From positions 248,001 to 312,000 of the forward strand of contig NZ_CANMCZ010000002.1 of the NCBI RefSeq assembly GCF_947496485.1: DNA of 64,000 nt. Direction: 5' to 3'. Positions 3,196 through 28,892 of the stretch are shown piece after piece. Position 1 is the first letter of the stretch; every line of letters begins with the position of its first letter. Origin of the DNA: an uncultured Winogradskyella sp. (lineage in GTDB: Bacteria; Bacteroidota; Bacteroidia; Flavobacteriales; Flavobacteriaceae). The position numbers were made by a program, and so were the translations under genes. The notes under the pieces were generated by a model. The model ran no database searches and was not told the DNA's origin. It was given only the letters and a program-made list of their open reading frames with translations.

Positions 3196-3322
3196 CAATT
3201 CAATTTATTAAAATACTTATTAACGAAAACGTTTGAATTACTTTTTCGCTCACTATTTTATGACAATAGTCACTTAATTGTATCTATTGTTTATTAATTT
3301 TACTAAAAATATTATTTTAATA

Positions 3323-4309
3323 ATGCTACATACAATAAATAAAATAGGTGTTATGACTTCTGGTGGTGATTCTCCAGGAATGAATGCAGCTGTCAGATCT
3401 GTAGTAAGAGCATGTGCATTTCATAATTTGGAATGTTACGGTATTTACAGAGGATACGAAGGAATGATCGACGGTGATTTTGTTAAAATGGATGCTCGTA
3501 GCGTAAAGGGCATTATTAATAAAGGCGGTACTATATTAAAATCTGCTAGATCTAAAGAATTTAGAACCAAAGAGGGTAGAGCAAAAGCATACGAGCAACT
3601 AAAAAAGGCAGAAATAGATGCTTTTGTAGTTATTGGTGGTGATGGTAGTTTTACAGGCGCTATGATTTTTAACCAAGAATACGATTTTCCGGTAATGGGC
3701 ATTCCTGGAACTATTGATAACGATATTTTTGGAACCACTCATACCTTAGGTTACGATACAGCATTAAATACAGTTGTAGAAGTTATAGATAAGATTAGAG
3801 ACACAGCAAGTTCTCATAATCGTTTGTTTTTTATAGAAGTTATGGGGCGTGATGTTGGTCATATTGCACTAAATGTGGGTATTGGGGCTGGTGCAGAAGA
3901 AATTTTAATACCTGAGGAAGATTTAGGTTTAGACCGATTATTAGATTCTTTAAGACGAAGTAAAAAAACAGGTAAATCTTCTAGTATCGTCATTGTTGCC
4001 GAAGGTGATAAGATTGGTAAAAATGTCTTTGAGCTTAAAGATTATGTCGATGTAAATATGTCAGAGTATGAAGTACGTGTATCTGTTTTAGGACATATGC
4101 AAAGAGGTGGTTCACCTTCTTGTTTTGATAGGGTTTTGGCCAGTAGAATGGGAGTTAAAGCAGTAGAAAGTTTAATTACAGGAAAAAGTAATTTTATGGT
4201 TGGTTTAAAGAATGATATCATTGATTTAACACCATTTGACCAAGCAGTAAAGGGAAAATCAAAAATAAATATGGAACTTCTTAGAGTTTCAGATATAATG
4301 TCAATTTAA
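3323..4309 (+). CDS. pfkA: ATP-dependent 6-phosphofructokinase
   Basis: Phosphorylates fructose 6-phosphate to fructose 1,6-bisphosphate with ATP in glycolysis, in the cytoplasm. The 328-residue length is typical of bacterial PfkA. Visible motifs are the ATP loop SGGDSPGMN (13-21), GGDGS (105-109; glycine rather than aspartate at 108 argues for ATP over pyrophosphate as donor), the catalytic PGTIDND with D132, and the substrate-binding MGRDVGH and GHMQRGG segments. The start is set at the ATG 3323; a TTG 45 bases upstream would add an A/T-driven stretch of Ile, Phe and Asn that the family does not have. It lies 31 bases before gap, so the two glycolytic genes are probably cotranscribed. Confidence 0.95.
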   Translation: MLHTINKIGVMTSGGDSPGMNAAVRSVVRACAFHNLECYGIYRGYEGMIDGDFVKMDARSVKGIINKGGTILKSARSKEFRTKEGRAKAYEQLKKAEIDAFVVIGGDGSFTGAMIFNQEYDFPVMGIPGTIDNDIFGTTHTLGYDTALNTVVEVIDKIRDTASSHNRLFFIEVMGRDVGHIALNVGIGAGAEEILIPEEDLGLDRLLDSLRRSKKTGKSSSIVIVAEGDKIGKNVFELKDYVDVNMSEYEVRVSVLGHMQRGGSPSCFDRVLASRMGVKAVESLITGKSNFMVGLKNDIIDLTPFDQAVKGKSKINMELLRVSDIMSI

Positions 4310-4327
4310 TAACAAATAAAAAATTAA

Positions 4328-5341
<1,014 letters not shown>

Positions 5342-5358
5342 TAACTAGTATTAATTCT

Positions 5359-5402
5359 AAAATTCCGTAGGATTATGAATTAGTCATACCTACGGAATTT
5401 TT
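5359..5402 (+). terminator. Rho-independent terminator after gap
   Basis: A 13-bp perfect stem (5359-5371 with 5389-5401) closes a loop that can itself pair (TATGA with TCATA), followed by a T run. It lies between gap and the kinase at 5416, so the kinase probably depends on read-through or on its own weak promoter. Confidence 0.85.
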
Positions 5403-5415
5403 AATTTTGGTCATT

Positions 5416-6285
5416 ATGATTTTAATTACAGATGGCGGTTCTACAAAATGCGATTGGATTGCAATCGATAAAAACGGTAAACAAACTGCTGATAAAATAA
5501 GAACCAAAGGTTTAAATCCTGCTATTTTGAGCGAAAAAAAGCTTAACAAAATAATAAGGAAAAGTGATGAACTTATAGCAATGAGTAATGATGTAACTCA
5601 TGTGTTTTTTTATGGTGCTGGTTGTGGTACGGAAAAACCAAGAGCTACACTAAAAGAAATATTGGAGATTATATTTCCCAAAGCAAACGTTGATGTTCAA
5701 GAAGACACTATGGCGGCTGTAAGAGCAACAATAAATTCTAATGATGAAGCTGCAGTAGTCTGTATATTAGGTACAGGTTCTAATTGTAGTTATTTTGATG
5801 GTAAACAATTACATCAACGTGTACTAAGCCTTGGTTATACATTAATGGATGAGGCAAGTGGAAATTATTATGGTAAAGAACTAATACGCGATTATTATTT
5901 CGATATAATGCCACACACATTAAAGTTAGCGTTTGACCATAAATATAATGTAGATGCAGATTTCATAAAATATAACCTCTATAAGCAACCAAACCCAAAT
6001 GCTTATTTGGCAAATTTTGCTGAGTTTATGTTTTTAAATAAAGACTCAGATTATATTAAAGATTTAATTAAGAAAGGATTACGAAAGTTTACTGAACATA
6101 TGATTCTTCAATTTAAAGAGGAATTGCAAACAGGTATTCCGGTCCACTTTGCAGGATCAATAGCATATTTTTCGCAAGATGAAATAAAGGAAGTTGCAAA
6201 AGAATATGGATTCAAAGTAGGAAATTTTGTGAGGCGTCCTATTGAAGGTTTGATGGATTACCATATAAAAAATTTAAAACAATAA
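5416..6285 (+). CDS. N-acetylglucosamine kinase-like protein (BadF/BadG/BcrA/BcrD ATPase family)
   Basis: A 289-residue member of the ASKHA sugar-kinase fold. Residues 6-14 (DGGSTKCDW) form the first phosphate loop, ED at 96-97 is placed like the catalytic acid, LGTGSN (118-123) is the second phosphate loop, and GSIAYFS near the C-terminus is the adenosine loop. Families with this pattern phosphorylate N-acetylglucosamine or related amino sugars, which would feed peptidoglycan recycling or chitin use; the sugar cannot be fixed from sequence. The start is the ATG 5416; a TTG at 5407 would only add three residues. It directly follows gap but beyond a terminator. Confidence 0.8.
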   Translation: MILITDGGSTKCDWIAIDKNGKQTADKIRTKGLNPAILSEKKLNKIIRKSDELIAMSNDVTHVFFYGAGCGTEKPRATLKEILEIIFPKANVDVQEDTMAAVRATINSNDEAAVVCILGTGSNCSYFDGKQLHQRVLSLGYTLMDEASGNYYGKELIRDYYFDIMPHTLKLAFDHKYNVDADFIKYNLYKQPNPNAYLANFAEFMFLNKDSDYIKDLIKKGLRKFTEHMILQFKEELQTGIPVHFAGSIAYFSQDEIKEVAKEYGFKVGNFVRRPIEGLMDYHIKNLKQ

Positions 6286-6339
6286 AAAGAAGTTAATAAG
6301 TCTGTGTTTATTTCCTGTTAATAAATCTCATTTAGGCTC

Positions 6340-6370
6340 TTGTAAAACTTATTAATTGGTTATATCTTTG
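6340..6370 (+). promoter_or_regulatory. Bacteroidota-type promoter before the 60-residue membrane protein
   Basis: A TATCTTTG -7 box (6363-6370) matches TAnnTTTG exactly, with a TTG -33 element at 6340-6342 and a 20-base spacer. The start codon follows 27 bases downstream of the -7 box. Confidence 0.75.
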
Positions 6371-6397
6371 CACTAGAAATTAAAATGAAACACCATT

Positions 6398-6580
6398 ATG
6401 TTCGAATTTGATCAGTATTTAGGATTTTTAGCATTTTTAACCATATTAACTATTGGGTTTTGGTTAATGATATTCCTTTTAACTTTCGTAATCCCTTACT
6501 GGGTATTCGGATCTGCTATTGAGCGTTTCAAAGAAGTTAGAGAAGAAAAGAAGGCTAAGCGTGAAGGTTTAACACACTAA
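6398..6580 (+). CDS. Small membrane protein of unknown function
   Basis: Sixty residues: an acidic N-terminus, one long hydrophobic stretch or hairpin (about 9-38, ending IPYWVFG) and a highly charged C-terminal helix rich in Lys, Arg and Glu. It has its own promoter at 6340-6370 and its own terminator at 6603-6630, so it is an independent transcription unit. This makes it more credible as a gene than its length alone would. I do not recognise the function. Confidence 0.75.
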   Translation: MFEFDQYLGFLAFLTILTIGFWLMIFLLTFVIPYWVFGSAIERFKEVREEKKAKREGLTH

Positions 6581-6602
6581 GTTTCAAACTATATACAATA
6601 TT

Positions 6603-6630
6603 AAAGAGCGCAATAAGCGCTCTTTTTTTA
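6603..6630 (+). terminator. Rho-independent terminator
   Basis: A 9-bp perfect stem (6603-6611 with 6617-6625), 5-base loop and T run follow the small membrane protein gene. Confidence 0.9.
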
Positions 6631-6673
6631 TAGCTTATTATTAGGTACTTTAGTAACACTAATTAATACCATT

Positions 6674-8011
6674 ATGAAACAGATTATTATTCTTTTATTA
6701 ATTGCCAATTTTCAACTACAAGCACAGCGAATACTTTCAGAACGTCAACGTGCTGAAGTAGTTGATAGTATTTTAGAGGACAGGTTCAATAATCTACTAC
6801 CAAAACTAATGGATGATACAGGTTTCGATATGTGGATTCTAATTTCTAGAGAATACAATGAGGATCCGGTTTTAAAAACTATGCTGCCAGCAACTTGGTT
6901 AAATGCAAGACGTAGAACAATTCTTGTATTTTACAGAAATAAAGAAAAAAATACGATTGAAAAACTAGCGGTAGCTAGATATAATTTTGGTAAAAATATT
7001 GTATCTGCTTGGAATAAGGAAAAGGAGCCCAATCAGTGGAAGCGTTTGATACAGATTATAGAAGAAAGAAATCCGGATTCTATTGGACTTAATTATTCTG
7101 ATTTCTTCAATATTTGTGATGGTTTAGTAAAAACTGACTACGAAGCATTTATGTCTTATTTGCCAAAACAGTATGAGTCTAAAGTGAAATCAGCCGAGCA
7201 ATTAGCAATTGGCTGGATTGAAACAAGAACAGATACAGAAATGGTGATTTACAATCAATTGGTTGATATTACTCACGATATCATCGCTGAAGCTTTTTCA
7301 GAGAATGTAATCACAGCTGGTATTACAACTACAACAGATGTAGAGTGGTGGATGAGAGACAAAGTAACAGCTTTGGGACTAGAAACTTGGTTCCATCCAA
7401 CGGTTGATGTACAAAGAACCGCAGAAGAATTGGGGAATCATTTATATGCTTTTTCAAATAGACCTGAGGATATGGTTATCCTTCCAGGCGATTTGTTGCA
7501 TTGCGATTTTGGAATCACATATTTAAGATTAAATACAGATTGTCAGGAGCTCGCTTATGTTCTTAAGCCAAACGAGACTAAACCTCCAAAATATTTAGTT
7601 GATGCACTTAAAGATGGAAATCGTGTTCAAGATATTTTCACCAATAATTTTGAAACAGGGAAAACTGGTAATCAAGTTTTAAAACAATCTTTAGAGCAAG
7701 GTAAATCTGAAACTTTAAGACCAGCAATTTATACACATCCATTAGGTACTTATGGGCATTCTTCTGGAACAACATTGGGTATGTGGGATTCACAAGGTGG
7801 AGTGCCAGTAACAGGTGACTATCCATTACACGAAAATACTGTTTATGCTATAGAACTTAATACAACGGTTACCATTCCAGCATGGAAAAGAGATATTAGA
7901 ATAATGTTAGAAGAAGCAGGTTTTTGGGGAAAGGATGGATTTAGATATGTTAATGGAAGACAGACTAAATTATTAACTATTCCTAGAGTTAAAGAGCATC
8001 AAGGCAATTAA
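6674..8011 (+). CDS. Secreted M24-family metallopeptidase (Xaa-Pro aminopeptidase-like)
   Basis: The 445-residue protein begins with a Sec signal peptide (about 1-18, cleavage near LQAQ), so it should act in the periplasm or outside. An N-terminal creatinase-like domain (about 20-180) precedes the pita-bread catalytic domain. All five metal-ligand positions of the M24 fold can be seen: D278 (HCDFG), D289 (NTDCQ), H362 (YGHSSG), E394 (AIELN) and E413 or E414 (LEEAG). This suggests an active di-metal aminopeptidase or prolidase, though M24 members also include non-peptidase hydrolases. It overlaps the end of the convergent MFS gene by 4 bases. Confidence 0.85.
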   Translation: MKQIIILLLIANFQLQAQRILSERQRAEVVDSILEDRFNNLLPKLMDDTGFDMWILISREYNEDPVLKTMLPATWLNARRRTILVFYRNKEKNTIEKLAVARYNFGKNIVSAWNKEKEPNQWKRLIQIIEERNPDSIGLNYSDFFNICDGLVKTDYEAFMSYLPKQYESKVKSAEQLAIGWIETRTDTEMVIYNQLVDITHDIIAEAFSENVITAGITTTTDVEWWMRDKVTALGLETWFHPTVDVQRTAEELGNHLYAFSNRPEDMVILPGDLLHCDFGITYLRLNTDCQELAYVLKPNETKPPKYLVDALKDGNRVQDIFTNNFETGKTGNQVLKQSLEQGKSETLRPAIYTHPLGTYGHSSGTTLGMWDSQGGVPVTGDYPLHENTVYAIELNTTVTIPAWKRDIRIMLEEAGFWGKDGFRYVNGRQTKLLTIPRVKEHQGN

Positions 8012-9285
8012 TTTATGTTACTTTTTGAATGTCTGTAAAACAGAAATGAAGCTATCAAACCAGCTAGAGTAAATAAACTCATTACACCAAATGCATGTTG
8101 CAGACCTATAGCACCTTCATTGGCATCTAAAAAATAACCCATTAATAATCCAGCGAAAATATCTGGTGTATAACCAACTATAGAGATAAAACCAACCGCA
8201 GTTCCTGTGACAGCTAATGGTATTTTGGCTTCTTCAAGTGTAGCAAAATAGAGGACTCTAGCTGAATAAACACCTAAAGCCATAGAGCCTATAGATAGAA
8301 TAAATAAAAGTGTAGTAGTATCATCAGTAATTCCTAAGTAAAAAATGAGACTTGTTATAGTCATTAGCAAGAAGCCTATCACAATCCAAAGAGAAGCCTT
8401 TGTTCTATCAGCCAATAAACCAATTGTAACACCTATTACTGGTCGCATGTACAATAGGTAAGTACCAACTTTTGCAGCTTCAATTTTGTTATAACCCATC
8501 ACTTCTTCTGCATATTTGCTGAAGAGATCAGTCATTTTATAACCATAATAGGCGCACAGAATAATAATCATGAGTAGCCAAACGGCTTTAAATTTCATGA
8601 CGATTTTAAAATTGTCAATGGTCAATAATTTTGCTTTATTCTCAGAACCTAATTTTTCAGATTCATTAAATCTCAAAAAGAAAAAAACGATAAAGCCGAT
8701 AATCATAACTGCAATTGAGGTGTAGTATATGACTTCTTTAAATGCTATACGTCGTTCTTCAATCGAAGTTAGCTCTATGTTTTTGTTAATAAATAGTGAG
8801 AAAATAAGAACACCTGCAGATCCGAAAAGTGCTGCTACTAAACCACGACCACCATCTAAAAAGCCAAAGGCAATACCTTGTTTATTTTTACCTCCCCAAA
8901 TTCTGGTGGCTTTTATCATGGCTGCCCAAAACAAGAATATAGTTGTAAAACCCCAAAATCCATAAAGGATATATAAGTTAGAAAGGGAAGGGTATGTAGC
9001 TAAATAGAAACCGCCAAATGCTGTTAGAATTAGAGCAACAGACATTAATATATTTGGTTTAAACTTGTCTGCCAGCGGTCCTCCAAAAAGGTAGGATATT
9101 AATGCAACTGTTCCGTAAGCCGCAAAACAACTTCCTATTTGCGTATCAGTAATGGAAAAAGATTCTAGAAATGTTGTTCTAAAAATACGTTGTAAAACAA
9201 AGGGTAAGATAAAAACAGCCTCTGCTGCTAATATCAATAATATTATAACATATAAAGGCTGTTTTTTAGTTGTTTGTTGTTGCAT
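8008..9285 (-). CDS. Major facilitator superfamily transporter
   Basis: A 425-residue inner-membrane protein with about twelve hydrophobic segments. The loop after helix 2 reads GGPLADKF, the family's conserved basic/acidic loop, and a second version (GLLADRTK) begins the second half. The substrate is not evident. It starts 1 base after the acyl-CoA carboxylase gene on the same strand, so the two are almost certainly cotranscribed. A link to branched-chain acid or related carboxylate metabolism is therefore plausible but inferred only from that neighbour. Confidence 0.85.
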   Translation of the reverse strand: MQQQTTKKQPLYVIILLILAAEAVFILPFVLQRIFRTTFLESFSITDTQIGSCFAAYGTVALISYLFGGPLADKFKPNILMSVALILTAFGGFYLATYPSLSNLYILYGFWGFTTIFLFWAAMIKATRIWGGKNKQGIAFGFLDGGRGLVAALFGSAGVLIFSLFINKNIELTSIEERRIAFKEVIYYTSIAVMIIGFIVFFFLRFNESEKLGSENKAKLLTIDNFKIVMKFKAVWLLMIIILCAYYGYKMTDLFSKYAEEVMGYNKIEAAKVGTYLLYMRPVIGVTIGLLADRTKASLWIVIGFLLMTITSLIFYLGITDDTTTLLFILSIGSMALGVYSARVLYFATLEEAKIPLAVTGTAVGFISIVGYTPDIFAGLLMGYFLDANEGAIGLQHAFGVMSLFTLAGLIASFLFYRHSKSNIN

Positions 9286-17909: not shown

Positions 17910-18077
17910 ATCCTTGGCGTTTTTCTTTAAAGATATAGAAGAAGTATTTATTATTAAAATCTTGTAACATTTTAATTGCAAATACTACTTATAATTTAGC
18001 TGGTAAAGTTTTTATAGTCATAAAAAATTACCGAAATTGCTTATCCGAAAATTGTTCAACCAAATAATACTATAAAT

Positions 18078-19418
18078 ATGTCTGATGATTTTGATTTATT
18101 AGAAACAAGTTCCAACGAAAAAACCGAAAAAGTTGATGTAAACTGGGGAAAAGCCATTGACCAAATGAAGTCAAAATTGGCACAAGAGGATGATCCAGAA
18201 AGTCGTCAAAAAATATTAAATGCAACGTTGGATAATGTTGTGGACATGGCAGAAAAGGATAGAACTACCTTGCTAGATGCGATTAAAGATCTTACAGATT
18301 ACCAAGATGAAGTAGGTATTATGTTTGAAGGCTTTTCAGCATTAAATGCCGCTGAGCAAAAGATTATTGATGATGCCATAAAAAGATTAGAACGTGCTAA
18401 AGTTGAACTTGAAGATGCCAAAAACAAACCAGATACATGGTGGAATAATCTTTGGGGAAGAAAAGGTAAGATAAGAGATGCAGAAGTAGAACTACAAAAT
18501 GCGCAAAAAGAGCGTGATGCTTCAGATAACAAAGCAAAAGCTATGTTTCAACAGCGTATTGAAACTGCAGATGTTCAGACGTTGTTAAATGAATTATCTT
18601 TTAAGAGTCAAGCTGCAATTAAGCGTTTAAAAGACAGAGAGCTCGAAATTAAAGAAGTTGAAGAAAGTCTAAAAACAGCAATAGTTGAGGCTAGTAACAA
18701 CCATACTAAGGCACTTCAAAAGAAAAAAGAGGTAGAGGCAAAGCTTGAAGAGCAATATGCTTTATTAAAACAAGCACGTCAAGCACTAGAAGAAGTTGCA
18801 GACAAACAATCTACCGAATATTCTGAAGCCTTAGAAAAAGTAACGCAATTAGAGCAAAAAGTTGAAGAACTAGAAGGTTTGAAAAATGCGTATACAACTT
18901 TAGCGGCTTCAAAAGATAGTTTTGTGCATAAGCATAATTTAACCATTAAGGTACTAACGTCTTTGCGTAGTAATTTACAAACACATAGAGCTAAGTTAAA
19001 GTCAGATACTGACGAACGTTTAAAATACTATGATGGCTATGTGGTAGCGTTAAAAGCACGTACAGACCAAGAGTTTGCAGCCATTTTAGAGCATTTGGGT
19101 GTTAAGACCGATGAACATATAGGCGAAACCTTAGCTGCGATGCATACCGCAAGTGCTAAAGCACGTCAGGAAATGATGGATAATATACCTGTTCATGAGA
19201 AAGTAATGCAAGGTGTTTATGGTAGTTACGCTGAAGCTTTAGGTGAGATTAGAACTAAAGATGCAGAGATTCAGAAAAACTTTGCAGATCGCTATGGTAT
19301 TGATATGAAAGAGATTTTTGACGAATACTATAAAGCAGATCCGAATGCACCATCTGATGGAGGTGAACCAGCTGGTGAGCCAAAACCAGAGGCTACTGAA
19401 GATGATTTGTTAGGGTAA
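18078..19418 (+). CDS. Long coiled-coil protein, TelA-like, first gene of an uncharacterised nine-gene cluster
   Basis: A 446-residue, almost wholly helical, strongly charged protein with no signal peptide or membrane segment. Heptad-rich coiled coil runs from about 95 to 290 (many AKVELEDAKN- and EEVADKQS-type stretches), followed by a helical C-terminal domain (about 290-425) and an acidic, proline-containing tail ending EATEDDLLG. The general build recalls TelA-type toxic-anion resistance proteins, and Flavobacteriaceae homologues are often labelled microtubule-binding protein, a label without evidence. It heads the co-directional block that includes the AAA+ ATPase at 21191 and may be its scaffold or substrate. 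Confidence 0.72.
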   Translation: MSDDFDLLETSSNEKTEKVDVNWGKAIDQMKSKLAQEDDPESRQKILNATLDNVVDMAEKDRTTLLDAIKDLTDYQDEVGIMFEGFSALNAAEQKIIDDAIKRLERAKVELEDAKNKPDTWWNNLWGRKGKIRDAEVELQNAQKERDASDNKAKAMFQQRIETADVQTLLNELSFKSQAAIKRLKDRELEIKEVEESLKTAIVEASNNHTKALQKKKEVEAKLEEQYALLKQARQALEEVADKQSTEYSEALEKVTQLEQKVEELEGLKNAYTTLAASKDSFVHKHNLTIKVLTSLRSNLQTHRAKLKSDTDERLKYYDGYVVALKARTDQEFAAILEHLGVKTDEHIGETLAAMHTASAKARQEMMDNIPVHEKVMQGVYGSYAEALGEIRTKDAEIQKNFADRYGIDMKEIFDEYYKADPNAPSDGGEPAGEPKPEATEDDLLG

Positions 19419-19498
19419 TTTTTAGTTGCTGAACTACATTTCAGATTTGATATATCAACTTATACTATACACTTGATTTTTTACAGGTGAATATTTAA

Positions 19499-20056
19499 AT
19501 GGAAAATTTTCTAAGAAAAATAAAACTAATTGATTCGTTTTCTACAACGTTGAATACCTCTAAGTCTGATTTTACTTCAGCATTACGAAATCATGTTGAT
19601 GAAGCCGAAATTGATAGTTTCTTTTCTGGTGTTTTTGAAATGTTTTCATCAAGTGAAAATAAATTCAAGGGTTTAGTAAGCCATAGCGGATTTAAAATAA
19701 GAAAGCGAAGACGTTTTTTTGAGAGAAACTTTGGAAAGGCTATAGCTAAAGGTAATCTTAGAGAACAAGGAGATAAATTGGTGATTAATACAGAAATTAA
19801 TGCTTTTAATAACTATATGATTTTTATGTTTGGTGCTTTGATTGTCTTTTACTTGGTCTTTTTTATCATCGTTTTTGGTAGTATTTTTTCTGAAAATTCA
19901 GAGCTTCCGGTTTTTGTACCAATCTTTGTGCTTGTTCATGCTGTATTTATGTTTGGAATCCCATATTTCATTATGCGAAAAGGAGTAAGACGTATGAAAC
20001 AAGATTTAGAAAGAGAGTTTCATTTTATAATTAGTAAATCTCATTCACTTAGATGA
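19499..20056 (+). CDS. Membrane protein of unknown function in the AAA+ cluster
   Basis: A 185-residue protein with a soluble N-terminal part of about 100 residues including a very basic patch (KIRKRRRFFERNFGK, about 66-80), then two transmembrane helices (about 105-128 and 138-158) and a basic cytoplasmic tail. No family is recognised. The last 4 bases overlap the start of the next gene, implying translational coupling. Membrane attachment here and in the genes at 25429 and 26056 suggests the cluster acts at the inner membrane. Confidence 0.75.
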   Translation: MENFLRKIKLIDSFSTTLNTSKSDFTSALRNHVDEAEIDSFFSGVFEMFSSSENKFKGLVSHSGFKIRKRRRFFERNFGKAIAKGNLREQGDKLVINTEINAFNNYMIFMFGALIVFYLVFFIIVFGSIFSENSELPVFVPIFVLVHAVFMFGIPYFIMRKGVRRMKQDLEREFHFIISKSHSLR

Positions 20057-21102
20057 TTGTAACACCATTAGATTCAGCAACTTTAGACTCTAAAGAACAA
20101 TACGTGTTCTATCACAAAATGATAGACTTTACACTAAAAGAGCTTATTGTTGCAGTTCAGGAAAAGCAGTTGCTTAACAAACAAGAAATCTTACTGTTTA
20201 AACAATATTGCGATCTATTGCTGTATTCTATTGAAGCCATGCGTGTAAAATATATGTATGACGATGAAGAGAATATGAAGGTAGATTTAACCGATTCTGG
20301 ATTTCCAAATTATTTAGAATTCCGATACTTATTTAATGATTTGGAATTACGAGAAGACTATTTAGGAAGATTAACAAATATTGATGTTCTCAAAGAAGAA
20401 TTTTTAGACACTTTAATGAGAAAGAAAGAGCCTATAGCTAAACGCAAACTCTTTCAAGCCGCTTCAATTGTCTATTATACATCTGCTAAAAAGGAATATA
20501 TTTTTAATCGTTTTGTACAAGGTAAGATTATTGCGTCACCAAATACTTCTGTTGCTGAGCATTTGGTAAGTTGGAGTTTTTATGATGTATCTCACAACAG
20601 ACCTTTTATTTGCTATTTGTATTTTGATTATGATGGTAGAAATGTGCAAGATTATAAAAGTGAAATCTACACAGTTTTAAAAAATACATCAGATAGAGAA
20701 ATGGCGTTAGATACTATGGCTTATGCTATTGATAAGCGTTTACCAAAAGTATTGCCCAAACTTATAAAGCGTATCGATTTAGGACCAATACACAACGTAT
20801 TTGCTAAAGATGAAAACGAAGTAACGCATGCTGTTTTAGATGGTATTGCCAAAAAAACGATTCCTCTAGAGTCTTATGCAGTTTCATTTAAAATAGATGA
20901 ATTAAGCTCTAAAAGCGAATTTAAAGAAGGTAGTTTCTTTAATAAGCAAGTTTTTCAGAAGTGGGATAATATTTTTAGACAACGCTATGTATTTGCGCCA
21001 CATCGTATTATACAATTGCTATACAATAAAACACCAGAGGTTATGAATAAGTTGGCAATACCACCAATTCAAATTTCTGAATTAAAAACTAATAACAAGT
21101 AG
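20053..21102 (+). CDS. Soluble protein of unknown function in the AAA+ cluster
   Basis: A 349-residue protein without signal peptide or membrane helices. It is rich in helices and acidic residues, with conserved-looking aromatic stretches (EQYVFYHKMIDFTLKEL near the start, WSFYDVSHNRPFICYLYFDYDG about 174-195). No catalytic motif is apparent. It overlaps the upstream membrane protein by 4 bases and is followed by a 75-base palindromic repeat before the ATPase gene. Its likely role is as a structural or adaptor partner; this is inferred from position only. Confidence 0.75.
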   Translation: MIVTPLDSATLDSKEQYVFYHKMIDFTLKELIVAVQEKQLLNKQEILLFKQYCDLLLYSIEAMRVKYMYDDEENMKVDLTDSGFPNYLEFRYLFNDLELREDYLGRLTNIDVLKEEFLDTLMRKKEPIAKRKLFQAASIVYYTSAKKEYIFNRFVQGKIIASPNTSVAEHLVSWSFYDVSHNRPFICYLYFDYDGRNVQDYKSEIYTVLKNTSDREMALDTMAYAIDKRLPKVLPKLIKRIDLGPIHNVFAKDENEVTHAVLDGIAKKTIPLESYAVSFKIDELSSKSEFKEGSFFNKQVFQKWDNIFRQRYVFAPHRIIQLLYNKTPEVMNKLAIPPIQISELKTNNK

Positions 21103-21177
21103 CGTCATAAACAGAAACGAAGCGATATGGTTATCTTTCTAATAGAAACAGGTTGCTTCACTTTATTCGCAATGACG
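21103..21177. repeat. 75-base imperfect palindrome with CGTCAT/ATGACG ends
   Basis: It starts CGTCAT (21103-21108) and ends with the exact complement ATGACG (21172-21177). Inside, ACGAAGCGA on the left faces TTGCTTCAC on the right. This is the shape of the cgtcattgcgaggaacgaagcaatct-type intergenic repeat of Bacteroidota. It is the only insertion-like interruption inside the cluster. Confidence 0.6.
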
Positions 21178-21190
21178 TAAAAAAAACAAT

Positions 21191-23146
21191 ATGGAACACA
21201 ATTCAACTTTTCCCATAAAACAAAATGAACTCAATATGCTTCGTGATGAAGCGACTTCATATTTAAAATCTATTCAATGGGAGCAAAGTCAACGTGCTAA
21301 AAACAAGGATAACGATGGTAAAGATGAATCTATCCTATTATACCTATCAAGAGCAAATAATGGGAGCAATGTCAATGTAACTTCGGTCTCTAAAACCATA
21401 CTAGCTCTAAAAAAGCGTTTGTTGCCGGAGTCTGTTGCACTTCCAATATATTTAAATCAGACGTTATTTGCTGTTCAAGAAGGATTGACTTTAGGAATTT
21501 GGATTAAAGATTCTTATTATGATGCTTCAGGTCTATCTAGTTTGAGCGAAAATAAATCTGCTCTAGACAGTTCAGGCAAACGCGAATACGAAAGTAAGAT
21601 GCATACAGCAACAGCATTTATGTTGTTTGCTTCTGCCTATAAGATCTTACACGATTTAAAACCACATGCATCAGACGATTTGTCTGTGATGAAACAAAAG
21701 TTTGCAGGCATTCCTGAGGTTTCACTTTTTTCCCCATTAAAAGGAATATCATGTCAACTGTTTTATTACGATAAGTATTTAGGTCATCCTGATATTATAA
21801 AATCAGACAAAGATGTTATTGACTTCACAGTGGTTTATTTCGAAGCTTTAATAGATGAAATTCAACTACGAAAAAGTAACTTAGAATATACCGAATCAAT
21901 CACTGACAGAACTTATAAACTTGAAAAATCGGATTTTGCTGTTTCGGGCTGGGAAAATGTGTTTGCAGGTACAGCGGTGAGTGTTGAGTTTAATAAAATT
22001 CAATTTGAGCAAATTGTAGGTAATAAAGATGCTAAGCACTTTGCAAGACGTTTAACTGAACGTATACTAAGCTACGATTTTGAAGCTAAGAAAAATCCAT
22101 TTCAAGAGCTTGGAGGTTTTATGCCAGTATTTATGGGTTACGGTATTCCAGGAACAGGAAAAAGTATGTTGATCGCTGCTATCGCTACCAGGTTAAAAGA
22201 GCATAGTGAAAACTTAGACATTCCATTTTTGTTTCATCCAATGCCAGACACATTGATTAGTACGTTTCAAGGTGGTTCTGCTGAGAAAATGGTAGAGTGG
22301 ATGAAACCTTTGCAAGATCCAACACGATTAATCTTTGCACCAATAGATGATGCTGAAAATAATTTACAAGAGCGTACAGCTCAAGGAGTTTCTGCTGGTG
22401 TTAAGGAAGTAATAGGTGTGTTTTTAAGATATACGGAAGGGGCTTATGCCGTTAATTACGGAAATAGTTCTATTGGTTTATTTACCAACTTACCAGAAAT
22501 GTTAGACAAGGCTGTAATTTCACGCGTACAAGGGCGATTTAAAATCGATGGAGCGCGTAATGAAAAAGACTTTGTAGATCAGGATCACTTATGGTGGAGA
22601 AAGCTAGAAGATACAATGCCAGATTTTATAAATATGAGTAACCCTAAGGATTATAAATATTTAGACGCACAGCAAGTCGCAAAAAATTTAGGTGAGATTT
22701 TAGATAAAGTCGATAAGCCAACAGAAGAACGAGTTTTAGATACATTTAATAAAGTTGAAAATAAGTATAAAGATTCTGAACATATGTTCTATGCACATTT
22801 ATATACAGAAATTCAGAAGATATTTCCATTCTTTTCGTCTCGTGATGTGCGTAATATTCAAAAAGCAGTATCGTTGCGTTTAACGGATTTTGATTTGGAA
22901 AAAGATTGGTTTGAAAATCCTGAAACTTATTTCAAACAAGATTACGATACCAAATTCGGAATGTTGCAAGAGTTAATGAGAGCCAATATGAAAGGGCTCG
23001 ACTTTAGTGATATTAGAAGACAAGAAGTCGTTCGTTATTTAGATAACGTTGCAACTATAGCAGACACTGACTTTAAACGTAAAGTTGATGCTAGGATTAA
23101 CCAATTGAATATTGAAACTGAGGCTCGGGAGCAGTTTGGGAAATAG
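21191..23146 (+). CDS. AAA+ ATPase with a large unique N-terminal domain
   Basis: A 651-residue protein. Residues 1-305 form a domain I do not recognise. The AAA+ module follows: Walker A GIPGTGKS (318-325), pore-loop-like FQGGSAEKMVEW (359-370), Walker B LIFAPIDD (380-387; Asp-Asp instead of the usual Asp-Glu), sensor-1-like TNLPEMLD (432-439) and arginine-finger candidates R445 and R449 in SRVQGRF. The C-terminal 200 residues are helical and contain FFSSRDVRNIQKAVSLRL, the typical AAA+ C-domain style. It probably remodels or unfolds a partner, perhaps the coiled-coil protein at 18078. It is not closely similar to FtsH, MoxR, ClpX or McrB. Confidence 0.85.
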   Translation: MEHNSTFPIKQNELNMLRDEATSYLKSIQWEQSQRAKNKDNDGKDESILLYLSRANNGSNVNVTSVSKTILALKKRLLPESVALPIYLNQTLFAVQEGLTLGIWIKDSYYDASGLSSLSENKSALDSSGKREYESKMHTATAFMLFASAYKILHDLKPHASDDLSVMKQKFAGIPEVSLFSPLKGISCQLFYYDKYLGHPDIIKSDKDVIDFTVVYFEALIDEIQLRKSNLEYTESITDRTYKLEKSDFAVSGWENVFAGTAVSVEFNKIQFEQIVGNKDAKHFARRLTERILSYDFEAKKNPFQELGGFMPVFMGYGIPGTGKSMLIAAIATRLKEHSENLDIPFLFHPMPDTLISTFQGGSAEKMVEWMKPLQDPTRLIFAPIDDAENNLQERTAQGVSAGVKEVIGVFLRYTEGAYAVNYGNSSIGLFTNLPEMLDKAVISRVQGRFKIDGARNEKDFVDQDHLWWRKLEDTMPDFINMSNPKDYKYLDAQQVAKNLGEILDKVDKPTEERVLDTFNKVENKYKDSEHMFYAHLYTEIQKIFPFFSSRDVRNIQKAVSLRLTDFDLEKDWFENPETYFKQDYDTKFGMLQELMRANMKGLDFSDIRRQEVVRYLDNVATIADTDFKRKVDARINQLNIETEAREQFGK

Positions 23147-23155
23147 AAGTAATTT

Positions 23156-23563
23156 ATGAGTAAATTGGAATTGGACCATATAATTGGATATTTAAATGAT
23201 AAGTCATCAACTCATGATGCATATTTTGGTTTCACTTATGAAGATGATTGTCCTCATATACAGGCGAACGAAGATGGTTTAAAGTTATTTTCTAGACAAT
23301 TGTTAAAAGCCATAAGACTTTTTGAAGATCGAAAAAATAGTGAAAATCCAACTATAAGTATTGAAGGTGGTGATTGGCTTATAGGAGAAGATTTTTATAG
23401 TTACATAGAACCTGTCTATGTTTCTAGAAAAGAATATTTGAAAAAGGAAAATAAGAGTAGCACTAAAGATTATGTATATAATACCATTGGTCTTACAATT
23501 TTTGGATTGATTATAATTTCAATAATAGTTGGATTTGGAACGATGATTAGTTGGATATTCTAA
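23156..23563 (+). CDS. Small tail-anchored protein of unknown function
   Basis: A 135-residue protein: a soluble, acidic domain (about 1-95, with DCPHIQANEDGLKLFSRQLLKAI at about 32-54 followed by an ISIEGGDWLIGEDFYSYIEPVY segment) and one C-terminal transmembrane helix (about 110-132). The layout is that of a tail-anchored protein. It starts 9 bases after the AAA+ gene, and its stop overlaps the next start by 1 base (TAATG), so it is translated as part of the operon. No family is assigned. Confidence 0.72.
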   Translation: MSKLELDHIIGYLNDKSSTHDAYFGFTYEDDCPHIQANEDGLKLFSRQLLKAIRLFEDRKNSENPTISIEGGDWLIGEDFYSYIEPVYVSRKEYLKKENKSSTKDYVYNTIGLTIFGLIIISIIVGFGTMISWIF

Positions 23564-24150
23564 TGAAAACGCAAAATCTAAAAAATATAAATAGAATCAC
23601 TCTTTCTCACGAATGGGCTAAACTAGATAGAATTGATTATGATTATCAATTTAAAAATGAAGAATGGAAAAGTCTATCAAGAGAATGTTATAACCGTGGC
23701 GATGGTGCTGCAATATTGTTATATAATATCGAAAATCAGACAGTGATTTTAACCCAGCAATTCAGAATGCCGATTTACGAGAGTAATAGAAAAGAAGCAA
23801 TGTCTATAGAAGTTTGTGCAGGCGCAATTGATAATAGTGATACTCCTTTAGACACTATAATCAGAGAGACAAAAGAAGAAGTTGGTTACAAAATAAAAGA
23901 AGCCGAACAAGTTTTAACAGCATATACATCACCAGGTGCATTAACCGAAAAAATGTATTTATTTATTGCAGAGTATAACACAACAATGAGGATTAATGAA
24001 GGTGGAGGACTAGATAGTGAAGATGAAGAAATAGAAGTCTTAGAAATGCCATTTTCTAAGGCTATTAAAATGATTGAGAAAGAAGAGATTATTGATGCTA
24101 AAACGATAATGCTTTTGCAATACGTGCAGATTAATAAGTTATTAGATTAA
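23563..24150 (+). CDS. nudK: Nudix hydrolase, GDP-mannose pyrophosphatase NudK type
   Basis: A 195-residue Nudix protein that hydrolyses GDP-mannose or a related sugar nucleotide. The Nudix box is at about 90-112: Gly-x5-Asp-x7-RETKEEVGY, with Asp at the first acidic position as in E. coli NudK. The following TSPGALTEKMYLFIAEY and the C-terminal GGGLDSEDEEIEVLEMPFSKA closely follow NudK, giving good subfamily confidence. The start is the ATG 23563, which overlaps the preceding stop (TAATG). The next gene begins on the base after its stop. A sugar-nucleotide hydrolase buried inside the AAA+ cluster is unexpected. Confidence 0.87.
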   Translation: MKTQNLKNINRITLSHEWAKLDRIDYDYQFKNEEWKSLSRECYNRGDGAAILLYNIENQTVILTQQFRMPIYESNRKEAMSIEVCAGAIDNSDTPLDTIIRETKEEVGYKIKEAEQVLTAYTSPGALTEKMYLFIAEYNTTMRINEGGGLDSEDEEIEVLEMPFSKAIKMIEKEEIIDAKTIMLLQYVQINKLLD

Positions 24151-25386
24151 ATGGATAAATTAAAAGAAGCTAATCTATATAGAAGTGAACTCATTCCGGT
24201 AAGTGGAAAGTTAGTTGAACGTTATAATAAATGCCTTAAAACGCTTGGTTTTACAGAGACTAAACTCAAGTCGTTTTATATTGATGGAGTAGGTTGGAGT
24301 CCAGAAGTTGCAGAAGAAAAGAAGGATATACAATACCTTAATCATGGTGATGCCAATCCTCATGGAATCATAATATCACCATTGCAAAAAGGAAAACCTG
24401 TGTATTTGCCTTTCCACTCCTTTGATAGAGAAATGATGCAGCATGTATTTAGAACACATGGTCAAAAAATTAATGATATTACCAGAGATTCTGCCATTTG
24501 CATTGATTTTGATCAAGATATTGATGTGTTTTATGAGCCTTTGGATATTTTAAAATATGACGATGTCAGTATTACTTTCCGATTAATCGATAATTTAGAA
24601 CAAATTCAAAAAGATCAATTAGAGCTTGTACACAAATTTAAATCTGCGAATAACTTTATAGATGAAAGTATACATCAGCAATTATTAGATTCTGCAAAAT
24701 CTTATGGAGATTTAAGAGATAGAGATTTAGAATTACATCCATTGCATTTTTCAACAGGTTCGTTCTATTCGAGAGCATTCGATGGTGTATATTTACTTAG
24801 AGATTTTATAAAACCAATTGTTGTTTTTGAAAGCAAAGAATATTACAAGGAAGCCATAAAAGATACGATTCATGATGTGCTGATTTACCATATTGATCAA
24901 CCAGAATTAGTAGATAAACTAAAAGATCACATCATTATTGAGTGTGATTTGGAGCATATTGTAAAAACACCAAATTACGAAAGAATTAAGAAGTACGAAT
25001 TAGCACAATTCTTAAAAGAGACAGAGCATCCAATTAAGGATATATTAAATGATAAAGTTTTATTTAAAAGTTATTTAAATAAAATTGATATTAAAGCGCG
25101 TAAGCAGGTGATGGGAGTAGAACTATATCTCGAAAAATTAGAGCGAAGCAATGCTCATAAAATAGAGGACATCGTGGATCAATCCTTTTATTTTGCTCTA
25201 CATCAACCGCATTCATCTTTATCAGCTGAACACCGCGATCTAATTCATAAGCTATTAATTAACATAGCACCAAAGGATGTCTTATTCTTGTACTGGTACG
25301 ATAAAGAACAGTTTTATAAGAGTTACGAAGGTTGGGGTGATTCTTTTAAGGATTGGGTAATAGATCGTATTAGTAACAATATTTGA
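24151..25386 (+). CDS. Soluble protein of unknown function in the AAA+ cluster
   Basis: A 411-residue cytoplasmic-looking protein with no signal peptide and no membrane helix. The N-terminal 180 residues have mixed alpha/beta character, with short motifs such as SFYIDGVGWSPEVAEE and YLPFHSFDREMM. The C-terminal half is helical and charged. I see no catalytic signature. It abuts nudK with no gap and is followed 42 bases later by a membrane protein, so it belongs to the same transcription unit. Confidence 0.75.
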   Translation: MDKLKEANLYRSELIPVSGKLVERYNKCLKTLGFTETKLKSFYIDGVGWSPEVAEEKKDIQYLNHGDANPHGIIISPLQKGKPVYLPFHSFDREMMQHVFRTHGQKINDITRDSAICIDFDQDIDVFYEPLDILKYDDVSITFRLIDNLEQIQKDQLELVHKFKSANNFIDESIHQQLLDSAKSYGDLRDRDLELHPLHFSTGSFYSRAFDGVYLLRDFIKPIVVFESKEYYKEAIKDTIHDVLIYHIDQPELVDKLKDHIIIECDLEHIVKTPNYERIKKYELAQFLKETEHPIKDILNDKVLFKSYLNKIDIKARKQVMGVELYLEKLERSNAHKIEDIVDQSFYFALHQPHSSLSAEHRDLIHKLLINIAPKDVLFLYWYDKEQFYKSYEGWGDSFKDWVIDRISNNI

Positions 25387-25428
25387 TAATTTTAGACTAA
25401 TTTTATAAGAACCTTAAACACAGAAACA

Positions 25429-25965
25429 ATGGGAATAGATATTATAGTTTTTATAGCATCAATATTATTTGGTATTTTCTTGTACTGGCGAGAGTCTAAT
25501 GGTAATGGTGTTTATCGTTTTTTAAACAAGGTTGTAAATAGTAAAGAATTACAAATGAGTCCCGATAACCCAAAAGGATTTGTTTATAAGCAAGCATTTA
25601 TACCAAGACTAATATTTATAGTTACATCGGTACTTGTAATCGGACTTATTATTCAATTTTTAACACCTATAGAGGTTTTTACTAATTATTTTGTACTCTC
25701 TGGATTTGCATCGTTTGCTACTGGAACCTTAATAGGAACCTACTTGGCTAATTTTGTTATTAAAACAACTGAAGTTGTAGAAGAAAAAAGTGATTCTATT
25801 GGTGATTTGGTTGATGATGCTGTTGAAAAAGGAAAAGATTTTATTGACGATTTAAAAACTAAAGAACCTAAAGTAGTTGAAGAAGCTAAAAAAGAAATAG
25901 AAACTGAGCCAGAAGTCGATAAACAAAGTGCTCGAGACCGATTGAAAGATAAGGGTCTTATGTAA
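25429..25965 (+). CDS. Membrane protein with acidic cytoplasmic tail
   Basis: A 178-residue protein with hydrophobic helices at about 3-19, 58-80 and 88-110, then a charged tail of about 65 residues rich in Glu, Asp and Lys (DLVDDAVEKGKDFIDDLKTKE and on), probably coiled or disordered, ending ARDRLKDKGLM. No family is recognised. It is placed between soluble and membrane members of the cluster and may anchor the soluble proteins. Confidence 0.75.
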   Translation: MGIDIIVFIASILFGIFLYWRESNGNGVYRFLNKVVNSKELQMSPDNPKGFVYKQAFIPRLIFIVTSVLVIGLIIQFLTPIEVFTNYFVLSGFASFATGTLIGTYLANFVIKTTEVVEEKSDSIGDLVDDAVEKGKDFIDDLKTKEPKVVEEAKKEIETEPEVDKQSARDRLKDKGLM

Positions 25966-26055
25966 AAATATTCTCAGTTTTAACTAAATCGATACTAATA
26001 AAAACAGATTGTTGTAGCCAACTAAAAATTAGCTTAGCAATTAGAATTAAATACT

Positions 26056-27750
26056 ATGATAAAATCATACTGGAATAAAGGAGGAAAACAAAAACGAATC
26101 ACAATATTTCTTGCACTTTTATTGCTAATACTACTATTCTTTTTTAGAGACGATTATCAGCCAGTCTTACTATTCTTAAGAAAGTATATTTTTGTAATCT
26201 TAGTCAGTTTATTGATTCTAATTTTAGGTTTAAGAAAATTTAGAAGAACATCGAGTACAGGTGGACGATTGGGAATTTTAGCGCTTCTAATAGTGTTTTT
26301 TGGGATTATATACGTGTTTGGATGGCATTATAAAATGTATGATTATATGAAAACTTATAATGTTTTCAATAGTCTCAATAAGGTTGAAATCGATGAACTT
26401 CCTCTAACACAAAACGAGCGTATTCAACCCTTAAGAAACATTTTTTCTATGGCGAACGAAAGCGTTGGTGAAACCAAAGATGTTTCTTTACCACACTTAG
26501 TTAGAATCGGTACAGAGAACAAGTGGACTATGGCAATTCAGCCAAGCGAGAAGTATATTATGCAACGTATTAGTGATAACACAGAAGAAGTATTTTCTGT
26601 AAGCAGCACAACACCCTTTCCTAGATTTTCTAATGAAAACCGAATCGACGTCACTTTTTCTATTGGTGAATCCTTAAAGTTCAGCAGAAACACGTATAAC
26701 GCGGTAGTACAGCGTTTTAATCCTTGGATGTTATTAAATTATGAGCCAAGCGATACATTTTACATGAAAAATGATGAAGGTAACTGGGTGGAAGTCGTAA
26801 GCTTGATAAAATGGAAAGGCTTTTTCTTTCCATATCCAACATTTGGAGGTGTAATGATTATAGATAGTGGTGAACACGATTTTAATGACTATGTGGAGCG
26901 AATTACCATTGGAAAAGGAACATTTGTACATCCAGATGACATAAAGAATTATCCGTTTTTAAATAAACAAAATACATTAGCCGAAGAAGTTTCACAACTT
27001 CAAGCAGAATCTTTAAAGTTTTTAGGAGGATTCAGTGACCCATTACCTTGGAATATGGAAACTGCCGTAAAAATTCCGCTGATGCCAAAAGACCAAAATC
27101 AACAACCATACGTTACTGATTTTGATTTTACAGGAAGTAATTCTGATGCCTATAGTGGTTTATACCATTGGTTTGGGTTAGAGCCAGTAGGTGATGAGCG
27201 TACCAGCTTAAGTTATAGTGTGTTTATTCCTGCCGATGGTACAGATAAAATGTACTATTTTGATCATGCAACAAAAAAGCAAGGGTATGCAGGTGTTTCT
27301 GCTATGCCATTAAAAGTGAAAGAATCTCGTAAAGAGTATGATTGGAACGCAAGTACACCTGTTGAGTTTAGGCCTTATATTAAAGATATTGCTGGTAGAA
27401 AGCGCATGTTCTTCTTAGGAACAATATCTTCTATAAGTGCTACTGACGCACAACAATTTGACGGTTCTGCAACACCAGATTTAGTCTTAATAGACAGTGA
27501 ATATAGAGATGTGATTTGGATAGATGTAAAGCATCCAAGCACTTGGGATGAAGAAGTTTATAATCAACTTAATGAAGCTTGGAGATCTAGTGAAGGTATT
27601 GGTTATTATTTTAAAGAAGAGCCAAAGGATGAAGATATTATGGAAAAAGCTTTAGACTCTTTAAAGATGATTCCAAAGGTTGAAGATAATTCTTCGCAAA
27701 TAGAAAAATTACAACGTGAATTGGATTCTTTGAAGGCAGTTGGGAACTAA
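26056..27750 (+). CDS. Large membrane protein with extracytoplasmic domain, last gene of the AAA+ cluster
   Basis: A 564-residue protein. Three hydrophobic helices lie in the first 100 residues (about 15-30, 38-56, 70-92). Residues 100-520 form a large domain rich in beta strands and aromatic residues (for example KWKGFFFPYPTFGGVM about 250-265 and GLYHWFGLEPVGDERTSLSYS about 367-387). A short C-terminal coiled coil (KLQRELDSLKAVG) ends the chain. No catalytic motif is seen. With three membrane helices the bulk would lie outside the cytoplasm, giving the cluster a face on the periplasm. Confidence 0.75.
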   Translation: MIKSYWNKGGKQKRITIFLALLLLILLFFFRDDYQPVLLFLRKYIFVILVSLLILILGLRKFRRTSSTGGRLGILALLIVFFGIIYVFGWHYKMYDYMKTYNVFNSLNKVEIDELPLTQNERIQPLRNIFSMANESVGETKDVSLPHLVRIGTENKWTMAIQPSEKYIMQRISDNTEEVFSVSSTTPFPRFSNENRIDVTFSIGESLKFSRNTYNAVVQRFNPWMLLNYEPSDTFYMKNDEGNWVEVVSLIKWKGFFFPYPTFGGVMIIDSGEHDFNDYVERITIGKGTFVHPDDIKNYPFLNKQNTLAEEVSQLQAESLKFLGGFSDPLPWNMETAVKIPLMPKDQNQQPYVTDFDFTGSNSDAYSGLYHWFGLEPVGDERTSLSYSVFIPADGTDKMYYFDHATKKQGYAGVSAMPLKVKESRKEYDWNASTPVEFRPYIKDIAGRKRMFFLGTISSISATDAQQFDGSATPDLVLIDSEYRDVIWIDVKHPSTWDEEVYNQLNEAWRSSEGIGYYFKEEPKDEDIMEKALDSLKMIPKVEDNSSQIEKLQRELDSLKAVGN

Positions 27751-27770: not shown

Positions 27771-28892
27771 ATGAAAAAGCACCTGTCAATTTTTAAAATC
27801 TTTATTTTTTTAACCATTCAGTCCTGCTCTAGTCAACATTTTAAACAGAAAATTGAAGTTGACAATTCGTTAAATTCATTTGATAGAAAAGTAGATTCTA
27901 TTATTGCCAATAAAATGAATACTTACAATATTCCTGGGCTATCAATTGGTATTGTCAAAAAAGATTCGATAGTATATTCAAAAGGCTATGGAGTAAAGAA
28001 TATTAATACTAAAGATTTAGTTAGCAAAAACACAAATTTTCATACTGCGTCCATTAGTAAATTGTTTACGGCTCAAGCAATAATAATGCTTGTTCAGGAA
28101 AATAAAATTAGCCTTAACACCAAACTGACAGAGGTCATTCCAGAATTATTATATAAGGATGAAAGAGTGAAAGATATAACGATAAAATCTCTACTTAATC
28201 ATACATCTGGTTTAACTGACGTGAGTAAATATAATTGGGAAAACAATAATCAATCTGACAATAGTTTGAGGGATTATATTATAGGTCTTACATTAAAATT
28301 ACAGTCTGAGCCACATGCAGAATATAACTATAGTAATTTAGGATATAATATTTTAGGTTATGTGGTTGAAAAACTATCTAAAACTAGTTTTGACGAATTT
28401 GTTAAAGAAAGTATTCTTGTTCCAAGTCAAATGTCAAATAGCGATTTCAGATATTTTAAAATAGCAGATTCAATAAAAACATCTCCACATTCTAAAAGAA
28501 TGATCTCTAAAAAGATATATGAACGAAAAATTTATCCTTACACACGAGAACAAGCACCTAGTAGTACTCTAAATTCATCTGCGAATGATTTGAATAAGTG
28601 GATGATTTCATTTTTAAAATCATCTGACAGCTTGAGTTCGAAAAAAAGCTTTGCAAGAATGTCTCTACCAAGCTTTGAACAGTATCCCTATATTGGTTTG
28701 GGTTTTCAGTTAAGCAATCTGTACAATGAAAAAGCTATTGGACACTATGGAGGTGATAAAGGATATAGAAGTTACTTGATAATGGTTCCAGAAAAAAGAA
28801 TAGGACTAGTTTTATTAGCGAATTGCGATTATGATGAAGATTTTAGACAAGAAATTTTGCATCCAATATTAAAACTAATTATAAATGAATAG
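27771..28892 (+). CDS. Serine hydrolase of the class C beta-lactamase fold, lipoprotein
   Basis: A 373-residue protein with a lipoprotein signal (lipobox near IQSC, Cys 19), so it is envelope-anchored. The active-site motifs are intact: SxxK as S94-I-S-K97, YxN as Y187-S-N189 and the third motif as HYGGDKG. This family includes penicillin-binding proteins, D-aminopeptidases, esterases and true AmpC enzymes; the lipoprotein anchor and overall style suggest a peptidase or esterase rather than an antibiotic-resistance enzyme. It starts 20 bases after the membrane protein of the AAA+ cluster and may simply be read through from it. Confidence 0.87.
   Translation: MKKHLSIFKIFIFLTIQSCSSQHFKQKIEVDNSLNSFDRKVDSIIANKMNTYNIPGLSIGIVKKDSIVYSKGYGVKNINTKDLVSKNTNFHTASISKLFTAQAIIMLVQENKISLNTKLTEVIPELLYKDERVKDITIKSLLNHTSGLTDVSKYNWENNNQSDNSLRDYIIGLTLKLQSEPHAEYNYSNLGYNILGYVVEKLSKTSFDEFVKESILVPSQMSNSDFRYFKIADSIKTSPHSKRMISKKIYERKIYPYTREQAPSSTLNSSANDLNKWMISFLKSSDSLSSKKSFARMSLPSFEQYPYIGLGFQLSNLYNEKAIGHYGGDKGYRSYLIMVPEKRIGLVLLANCDYDEDFRQEILHPILKLIINE

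Follow-up and report, generated by a model that had tools for sequence, protein, structure and literature searches.

A linked six-gene unit of Flavobacteriaceae combining an AAA ATPase, a probable coiled-coil protein and membrane proteins, whose core recurs on plasmids and on a phage-like contig

TelA is a long charged cytoplasmic protein, and the TelA/Ter systems combine such a protein with an ATPase and membrane parts. Two other described systems, Vps4/ESCRT-III and PspA/AAA, place a classical-clade AAA ATPase beside a helical coiled-coil protein and membrane proteins. A review (PMC11237479) describes AAA neighbours of PspA and, in the section concerned, reads these neighbourhoods as ATP-dependent membrane remodelling. 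The locus described here has a similar general build. It is located at positions 18078..27750 of the window, a stretch of 64,000 nucleotides from an uncultured Winogradskyella sp., and contains an AAA ATPase (D) together with a probable coiled-coil protein (A). Judging from sequence comparisons, the cluster appears to resemble the remodelling AAA systems in its working and to be a member of none of those compared. No study or description of its conserved part, a unit of six genes, was found in the open-licence literature. The kind to which it would belong, an AAA motor with a coiled-coil partner at the membrane, is already known, and it is the parts of the unit and its link to a phage that appear to be new.

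The locus consists of nine open reading frames (ORFs), here named A to I, and the ORF list bears out that all of them are on the + strand. The intergenic gaps are, in order, 80, -4, 88, 9, 2, 0, 42 and 90 bases; for F, the start was set at the ATG at 23566, the mechanical ORF start being a TTG at 23551. With a profile of D, 270 relatives were retrieved from 84,980 species, and the locus counts given below come from the best 80 of these 270. The record titles of these 80 relatives name Flavobacteriaceae, or unclassified Bacteroidia or Flavobacteriales, and the best matches beyond the genome of the window are from Winogradskyella. The complete set A-C-D-G-H-I, with this order and a common strand, is found in 76 of the 80 related loci. 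The other three genes, B, E and F, occur less often (3, 1 and 58 loci, respectively). Therefore, the conserved unit is formed by the six genes A-C-D-G-H-I, into which passengers have been inserted in Flavobacteriaceae. An earlier note on this DNA, whose interpretation is partly supported overall, had proposed a single linked unit with an ATPase, a coiled-coil protein and membrane parts. This is supported by the conserved order; however, the extent of nine genes that it gave to the unit does not hold, B, E and F being accessory.

The core genes A (18078..19418, + strand, 446 amino acids), C (20053..21102, + strand, 349 amino acids) and G (24151..25386, + strand, 411 amino acids) are each present in 79 of the 80 loci, the exception for A being a contig of 3.4 kb. 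The ATPase gene D, which defines the set, is located at 21191..23146 (+ strand, 651 amino acids). The genes H (25429..25965, + strand, 178 amino acids; 77 loci) and I (26056..27750, + strand, 564 amino acids; 76 loci) belong to the core in Bacteroidota. Regarding the four incomplete loci, one lacks I, two lack H and I, and one has D alone of the six genes. All four are on contigs that end within the cluster or shortly past it; for instance, one of the two contigs without H and I ends 1.1 kb beyond G. I is followed, 21 bases on, by a tenth gene of the same direction (27771-28892), which resembles a serine hydrolase by eye. Since none of the 68 full-length related loci holds a counterpart of this gene (phmmer, E up to 1e-10), the end of the unit can be placed at I.

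The same arrangement is found outside the family. Six genomes from four other Bacteroidia families possess a full-length D, and A-C-D-G-H-I is present in all six. The gaps between core genes range from -1 to 11 bases in one of them and from -8 to 18 in another, in which four of the five joints are overlaps of 1 to 8 bases. A third genome has one additional ORF between C and D, and in none of the six is there any gene, the Nudix gene F included, in the interval between D and G. Co-occurrence was determined in the family with one genome for each of 120 genera: D is present in 40 of these genomes and I in the identical 40. In 39 of these 40 genomes, D and I are on one contig and less than 7 kb apart (by table coordinates), I being cut by the contig end in one case (G437). 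At the level of the phylum, four of 296 genomes contain D, and the identical four contain DUF6638, the family of G. A survey of the class gave a full-length D in nine of 395 genomes, that of the window counted, and 22 further matches covering the AAA region only. The unit is patchy in its distribution, and the loci that were opened are whole unless the contig ends. Conservation in the family extends to the flanks, where a gene that we take to be of the ABC-F type is present in 61 of the 68 full-length loci. These flanks suggest that the unit has a constant position on the chromosome and has descended vertically, being lost in some lineages. The earlier note had named beforehand a lack of co-occurrence beyond close relatives as the result that would speak against its proposal. 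Instead, co-occurrence reaches far past them, to genomes across the family, other Bacteroidia families, plasmids and a phage-like contig.

The core is present in a second phylum, in plasmid copies that belong to accessory replicons. A tblastn search of 72,556 plasmid records with D gave 10 matches, in Vibrio, Sinorhizobium, Shinella and Rhizobium, and C is present in the same 10 records. Six of these 10 loci were opened (L107, L108, L109, L110, L113 and L114), and the order A-C-D-G was found in all six. For instance, profiles built solely from Bacteroidota sequences recognised A (4.3e-17), C (3.8e-33), D (2.4e-86) and G (2.0e-29) in the Vibrio locus L107, these E-values being computed over the ORFs of one locus. 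In L109, D and G are separated by an endonuclease gene and an insertion sequence (IS) element, and in L114 by a gap of 0.8 kb. Two Vibrio megaplasmids, L107 and L108 (882 and 925 kb), carry mfd, the gene of the transcription-repair coupling factor, after the core.

The membrane partner of the core is exchanged in these replicons. A DUF2333 membrane protein is encoded after G in the three rhizobial records L109, L113 and L114. I gave no PF10095 match, and an hhalign comparison of I with DUF2333 reached a probability of 0.3 percent, with shallow alignments. Plasmid pSK03 of Rhizobium leguminosarum (L112, 7777-10131) carries a diverged A, with 32 percent identity to that of Sinorhizobium meliloti, and DUF2333, without C, D or G in the neighbourhood. 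This pair sits between thymidine kinase and formate-tetrahydrofolate (THF) ligase genes, a place that the full set occupies in S. meliloti Ak57. The fact that pSK03 retains the pair alone indicates that A is tied to the membrane protein. The neighbours of DUF2333 in the L111, L112 and L115 set also include sigma-70/anti-sigma gene pairs (Skermanella and a Rhodobacteraceae plasmid) and genes for YqhA or TIGR00645 proteins (Skermanella and R. leguminosarum). These neighbours give a hint of envelope stress. The sole mention of DUF2333 found in open-licence papers is an excerpt in which it has amidase and Nudix genes as its neighbours in an hcp3 locus of Pseudomonas.

A search of IMG/VR with the DUF6638 profile gave one contig of 359,044 bases (IMGVR_UViG_3300035698_035310), on which DUF2333, A, C, small ORFs, D and G follow each other on a single strand (1776-9260). 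The Pfam scores on this contig are 304.9 bits for DUF2333 and 335.6 bits for DUF6638, both near full-length, and 45.9 bits for AAA. A few genes beyond the core, the contig has a DnaJ-like gene together with genes for peptide deformylase and a Clp ATPase, and this gene order matches that of Phosso, a Sinorhizobium jumbo phage of 469 kb, whose Clp is 44.7 percent identical and third among the phage matches. The contig also has a partial match, above the family cut-off, to the T4-type capsid protein Gp23, and two terminase profiles gave no match on it. These results indicate that the contig is probably a jumbo phage, either incomplete or with a diverged terminase.

The presence of copies on megaplasmids and on a jumbo-phage-like contig would be consistent with a defence system, or with a phage counter-defence or host-takeover device, directed against foreign DNA or membrane attack. 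However, a search of 50,697 phage records with three D queries and one C query gave one AAA-only match, with no C and no full D. PADLOC gave for D weak matches of the AAA domain to IetA (best 3.9e-5), for A weak matches of coiled-coil type such as JetC (best E 0.0012), and nothing more for these two proteins; F and G matched weakly the defence candidates PDC-S07 and PDC-S09. The conserved flanks in the family, such as the presumed ABC-F-type gene, also argue against this explanation, and a plain defence island is disfavoured by this chromosomal place together with the probable jumbo-phage copy. A role in defence is thus held to be decidedly improbable.

With respect to the ATPase, D matched Pfam AAA (PF00004) with 34.9 bits (cut-off 21.2), which places it among classical AAA proteins. 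Its nucleotide-binding motifs are intact: at what we take to be Walker A, the pattern GxPGTGKS/T is invariant across 12 aligned sequences, as are an asparagine at the presumed sensor-1 place and two arginines at the presumed arginine-finger places. The solved proteins nearest to D are VCP-like ATPases and Rpt4, followed at a lower level by Vps4. These relatives are motors that pull on or dismantle other proteins. The earlier note had held that its proposal would be weakened if D fell into a characterised ATPase family with known partners of its own; D gave the general AAA domain match alone.

Although the build of the cluster recalls Vps4/ESCRT-III and PspA/AAA, the sequences of D and A do not allow their inclusion in these systems. 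At E up to 1, Pfam gave no match to the MIT domain in D and none to PspA_IM30 or Snf7 in A, and four distant A homologues had no match to the latter two at 0.1. For this reason, membership of the Vps4/ESCRT-III and PspA (PSP) systems was rejected at the level of sequence. DUF2333 is absent from the main text of the review cited above, and its passages on these neighbourhoods showed neither counterparts of C, G, H or I nor a unit of the present kind. IetAS is alike in that IetA is matched weakly by the ATPase domain of D alone. Membership was rejected here as well, because the match is weak and restricted to the AAA domain, and no IetS-type protease was matched among the nine proteins.

The resemblance to TelA/Ter that the earlier note had proposed was not borne out by profile searches. 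If the cluster were a metal or oxyanion stress system of this type, A would be a diverged TelA, and A is indeed long, charged and cytoplasmic, as TelA is. The likeness extends to the general outline of a long cytoplasmic protein, an ATPase and membrane parts. However, neither A (E up to 1) nor four distant homologues (0.1) matched TelA (PF05816), and an hhalign comparison of the A profile with three TelA sequences, which has low power, gave a probability of 0.2 percent. In addition, TerC, TerD and TerY were not matched by any of the nine proteins, and no TelA match was found in the genome of the window. In three Bacteroidota loci TelA stands beside genes which, by their start, we take to be TerD-like, an arrangement that is missing from the cluster. 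Membership was rejected on the absence of a PF05816 match and of any Ter gene in the cluster, and this explanation is considered very improbable.

The six linked genes very probably form one machine, since they are kept together in many marine bacteria and the four-gene core recurs in distant bacteria and on the phage-like contig. How this machine might work can be proposed more tentatively. D would assemble into a cytoplasmic ring of the classical AAA clade; C and G could serve as its adaptors or scaffold, and together they would bind assemblies of A and then remodel or disassemble them. A could polymerise, and its assemblies would be situated at the cytoplasmic membrane, on its inner face. 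A membrane anchor and coupling to the periplasm would be provided by H and I in Bacteroidota, or by DUF2333 in several rhizobia and the phage-like contig. The machine would most likely serve to maintain the envelope or to reshape it locally. An action of D, together with C and G, on A is the simplest reading because the relatives of D are motors and its constant neighbours are a coiled-coil protein and two soluble proteins. Since the membrane partner varies (H and I, DUF2333, or none that is convincing), the assembly of A could be tied to the membrane by an exchangeable anchor, and this half of the model is supported by the A-DUF2333 pair of pSK03. The proposed working is similar, in outline, to that of Vps4 on ESCRT-III; kinship of D or A to that system is not claimed. 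As a whole, the reading of A, C, D, G, H and I as one machine in which A is remodelled at the membrane for envelope upkeep is a serious possibility, which we hold with some reserve.

Different observations weigh against this reading. In one of the 40 family genomes (G508), I is 848 kb away from D. Neither H nor I was found close to the core in the Vibrio locus L107 or in that of R. leguminosarum TP16 (L110); DUF2333 reaches at most a 15-bit match in the former and is not found nearby in the latter, indicating that a linked membrane partner is not universal. Finally, the presumed Walker B of D ends in DD (residues 386-387) in all 12 aligned sequences and in the copy of the phage-like contig, in place of the usual DE. 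Hydrolysis by D could be slow, because the Walker-B glutamate is replaced by aspartate.

D, C and G could alternatively be an assembly or quality-control chaperone for I or DUF2333, A being a scaffold and not the substrate of the ATPase. The presence of D and I in the identical 40 of 120 genomes and the replacement of I by DUF2333 beside the core would be consistent with such a role. However, neither I nor a convincing DUF2333 is encoded near the core in L107 and L110, and pSK03 retains A and DUF2333 without D. The chaperone is a rather unlikely explanation, though one to be kept in mind beside the remodelling of A by D.

Hydropathy shows no membrane segment in A, C, D, F or G. A contains 35 percent of charged residues and has the top mean heptad periodicity among 22 proteins measured; from its composition and periodicity it is likely a coiled coil. 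Homologues of A are found in Vibrio, rhizobia and the phage-like contig, and those of C, which has no match in Pfam, in two phyla. G, described in the earlier note as a soluble protein without motifs, turned out to be a DUF6638 member (PF20343, 108.3 bits, cut-off 27); its structural model has a predicted local distance difference test (pLDDT) score of 80. No function is assigned in Pfam to either DUF6638 or DUF2333, the families that accompany each other in the three rhizobial records and on the phage-like contig, and no open-licence paper was found on DUF6638 or on the presumed label COG5345. H has two membrane segments and an acidic tail, recognised by eye, and I has three followed by a long remainder; the large domain of I appears to be beta-rich, according to secondary structure taken from a low-confidence model.

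Regarding the accessory proteins, B (19499..20056, + strand, 185 amino acids) has two membrane segments, and E (23156..23563, + strand, 135 amino acids) is a putative tail-anchored protein with a single C-terminal segment, its only match among the loci scoring 39 bits. F (23566..24150, + strand), the frequent passenger, is a Nudix hydrolase of the YffH/AdpP family (TIGR00052, 150 bits, cut-off 79.55), and its score against the NudK equivalog (174.2) is below the cut-off of 234. The gaps between core genes in loci L023-L102 gather varied small ORFs, at least 23 of one cluster in the C-D and G-H gaps and seven of another; the former are presumably S23 four-helix-bundle-like and the latter presumably GIY-YIG-like.

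A leader element, the conserved 16-mer CCGAAATTGCTTATCC (18031..18046, + strand), begins 47 bases ahead of the ATG of A. The alignment of 80 regions upstream of A, that of the window included, has conserved blocks around TTTGTAACA and ACGAAATTGCTTATCC. In the window, ACGAAATTGCTTATCC is at 18031-18046 and TTTGTAACA about 70 bases further upstream. With up to two mismatches, 56 of the 82 upstream regions contain the 16-mer, whose first base is mostly 47 to 54 bases ahead of the annotated start codon; the 9-mer block is present with up to one mismatch in 51 of the 82. In the 4.11-Mb genome of the window, this copy of the 16-mer is the sole match with up to one mismatch; with up to two there are six matches, vs. 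two for the reversed control. No such blocks were found in the 60 bases ahead of D or of G, and in the six genomes from other families the 16-mer was not seen in the upstream stretches that were printed. These patterns suggest that the unit likely has one regulated start, ahead of A.

That the order of the core is kept across two phyla and in a probable jumbo phage, and that the 40 genomes with D (of 120) are also those with I, speaks strongly for a real machine. It is also conceivable, though unlikely, that the unit represents a separate membrane-remodelling lineage, of a build like that of ESCRT-III/Vps4 made from unrelated parts, and present in Bacteroidota, Proteobacteria and at least one jumbo phage. 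If this were true, A would be the polymer, C and G the adaptors and D the disassembly motor, with exchangeable membrane anchors, and a jumbo phage would use the system to reshape or guard the membrane of its host during infection. If D acts on A, the action of an AAA motor on a coiled-coil assembly located at the membrane could be studied with the unit as a compact bacterial model, and the proposal provides a first hypothesis for the function of DUF6638 and DUF2333.

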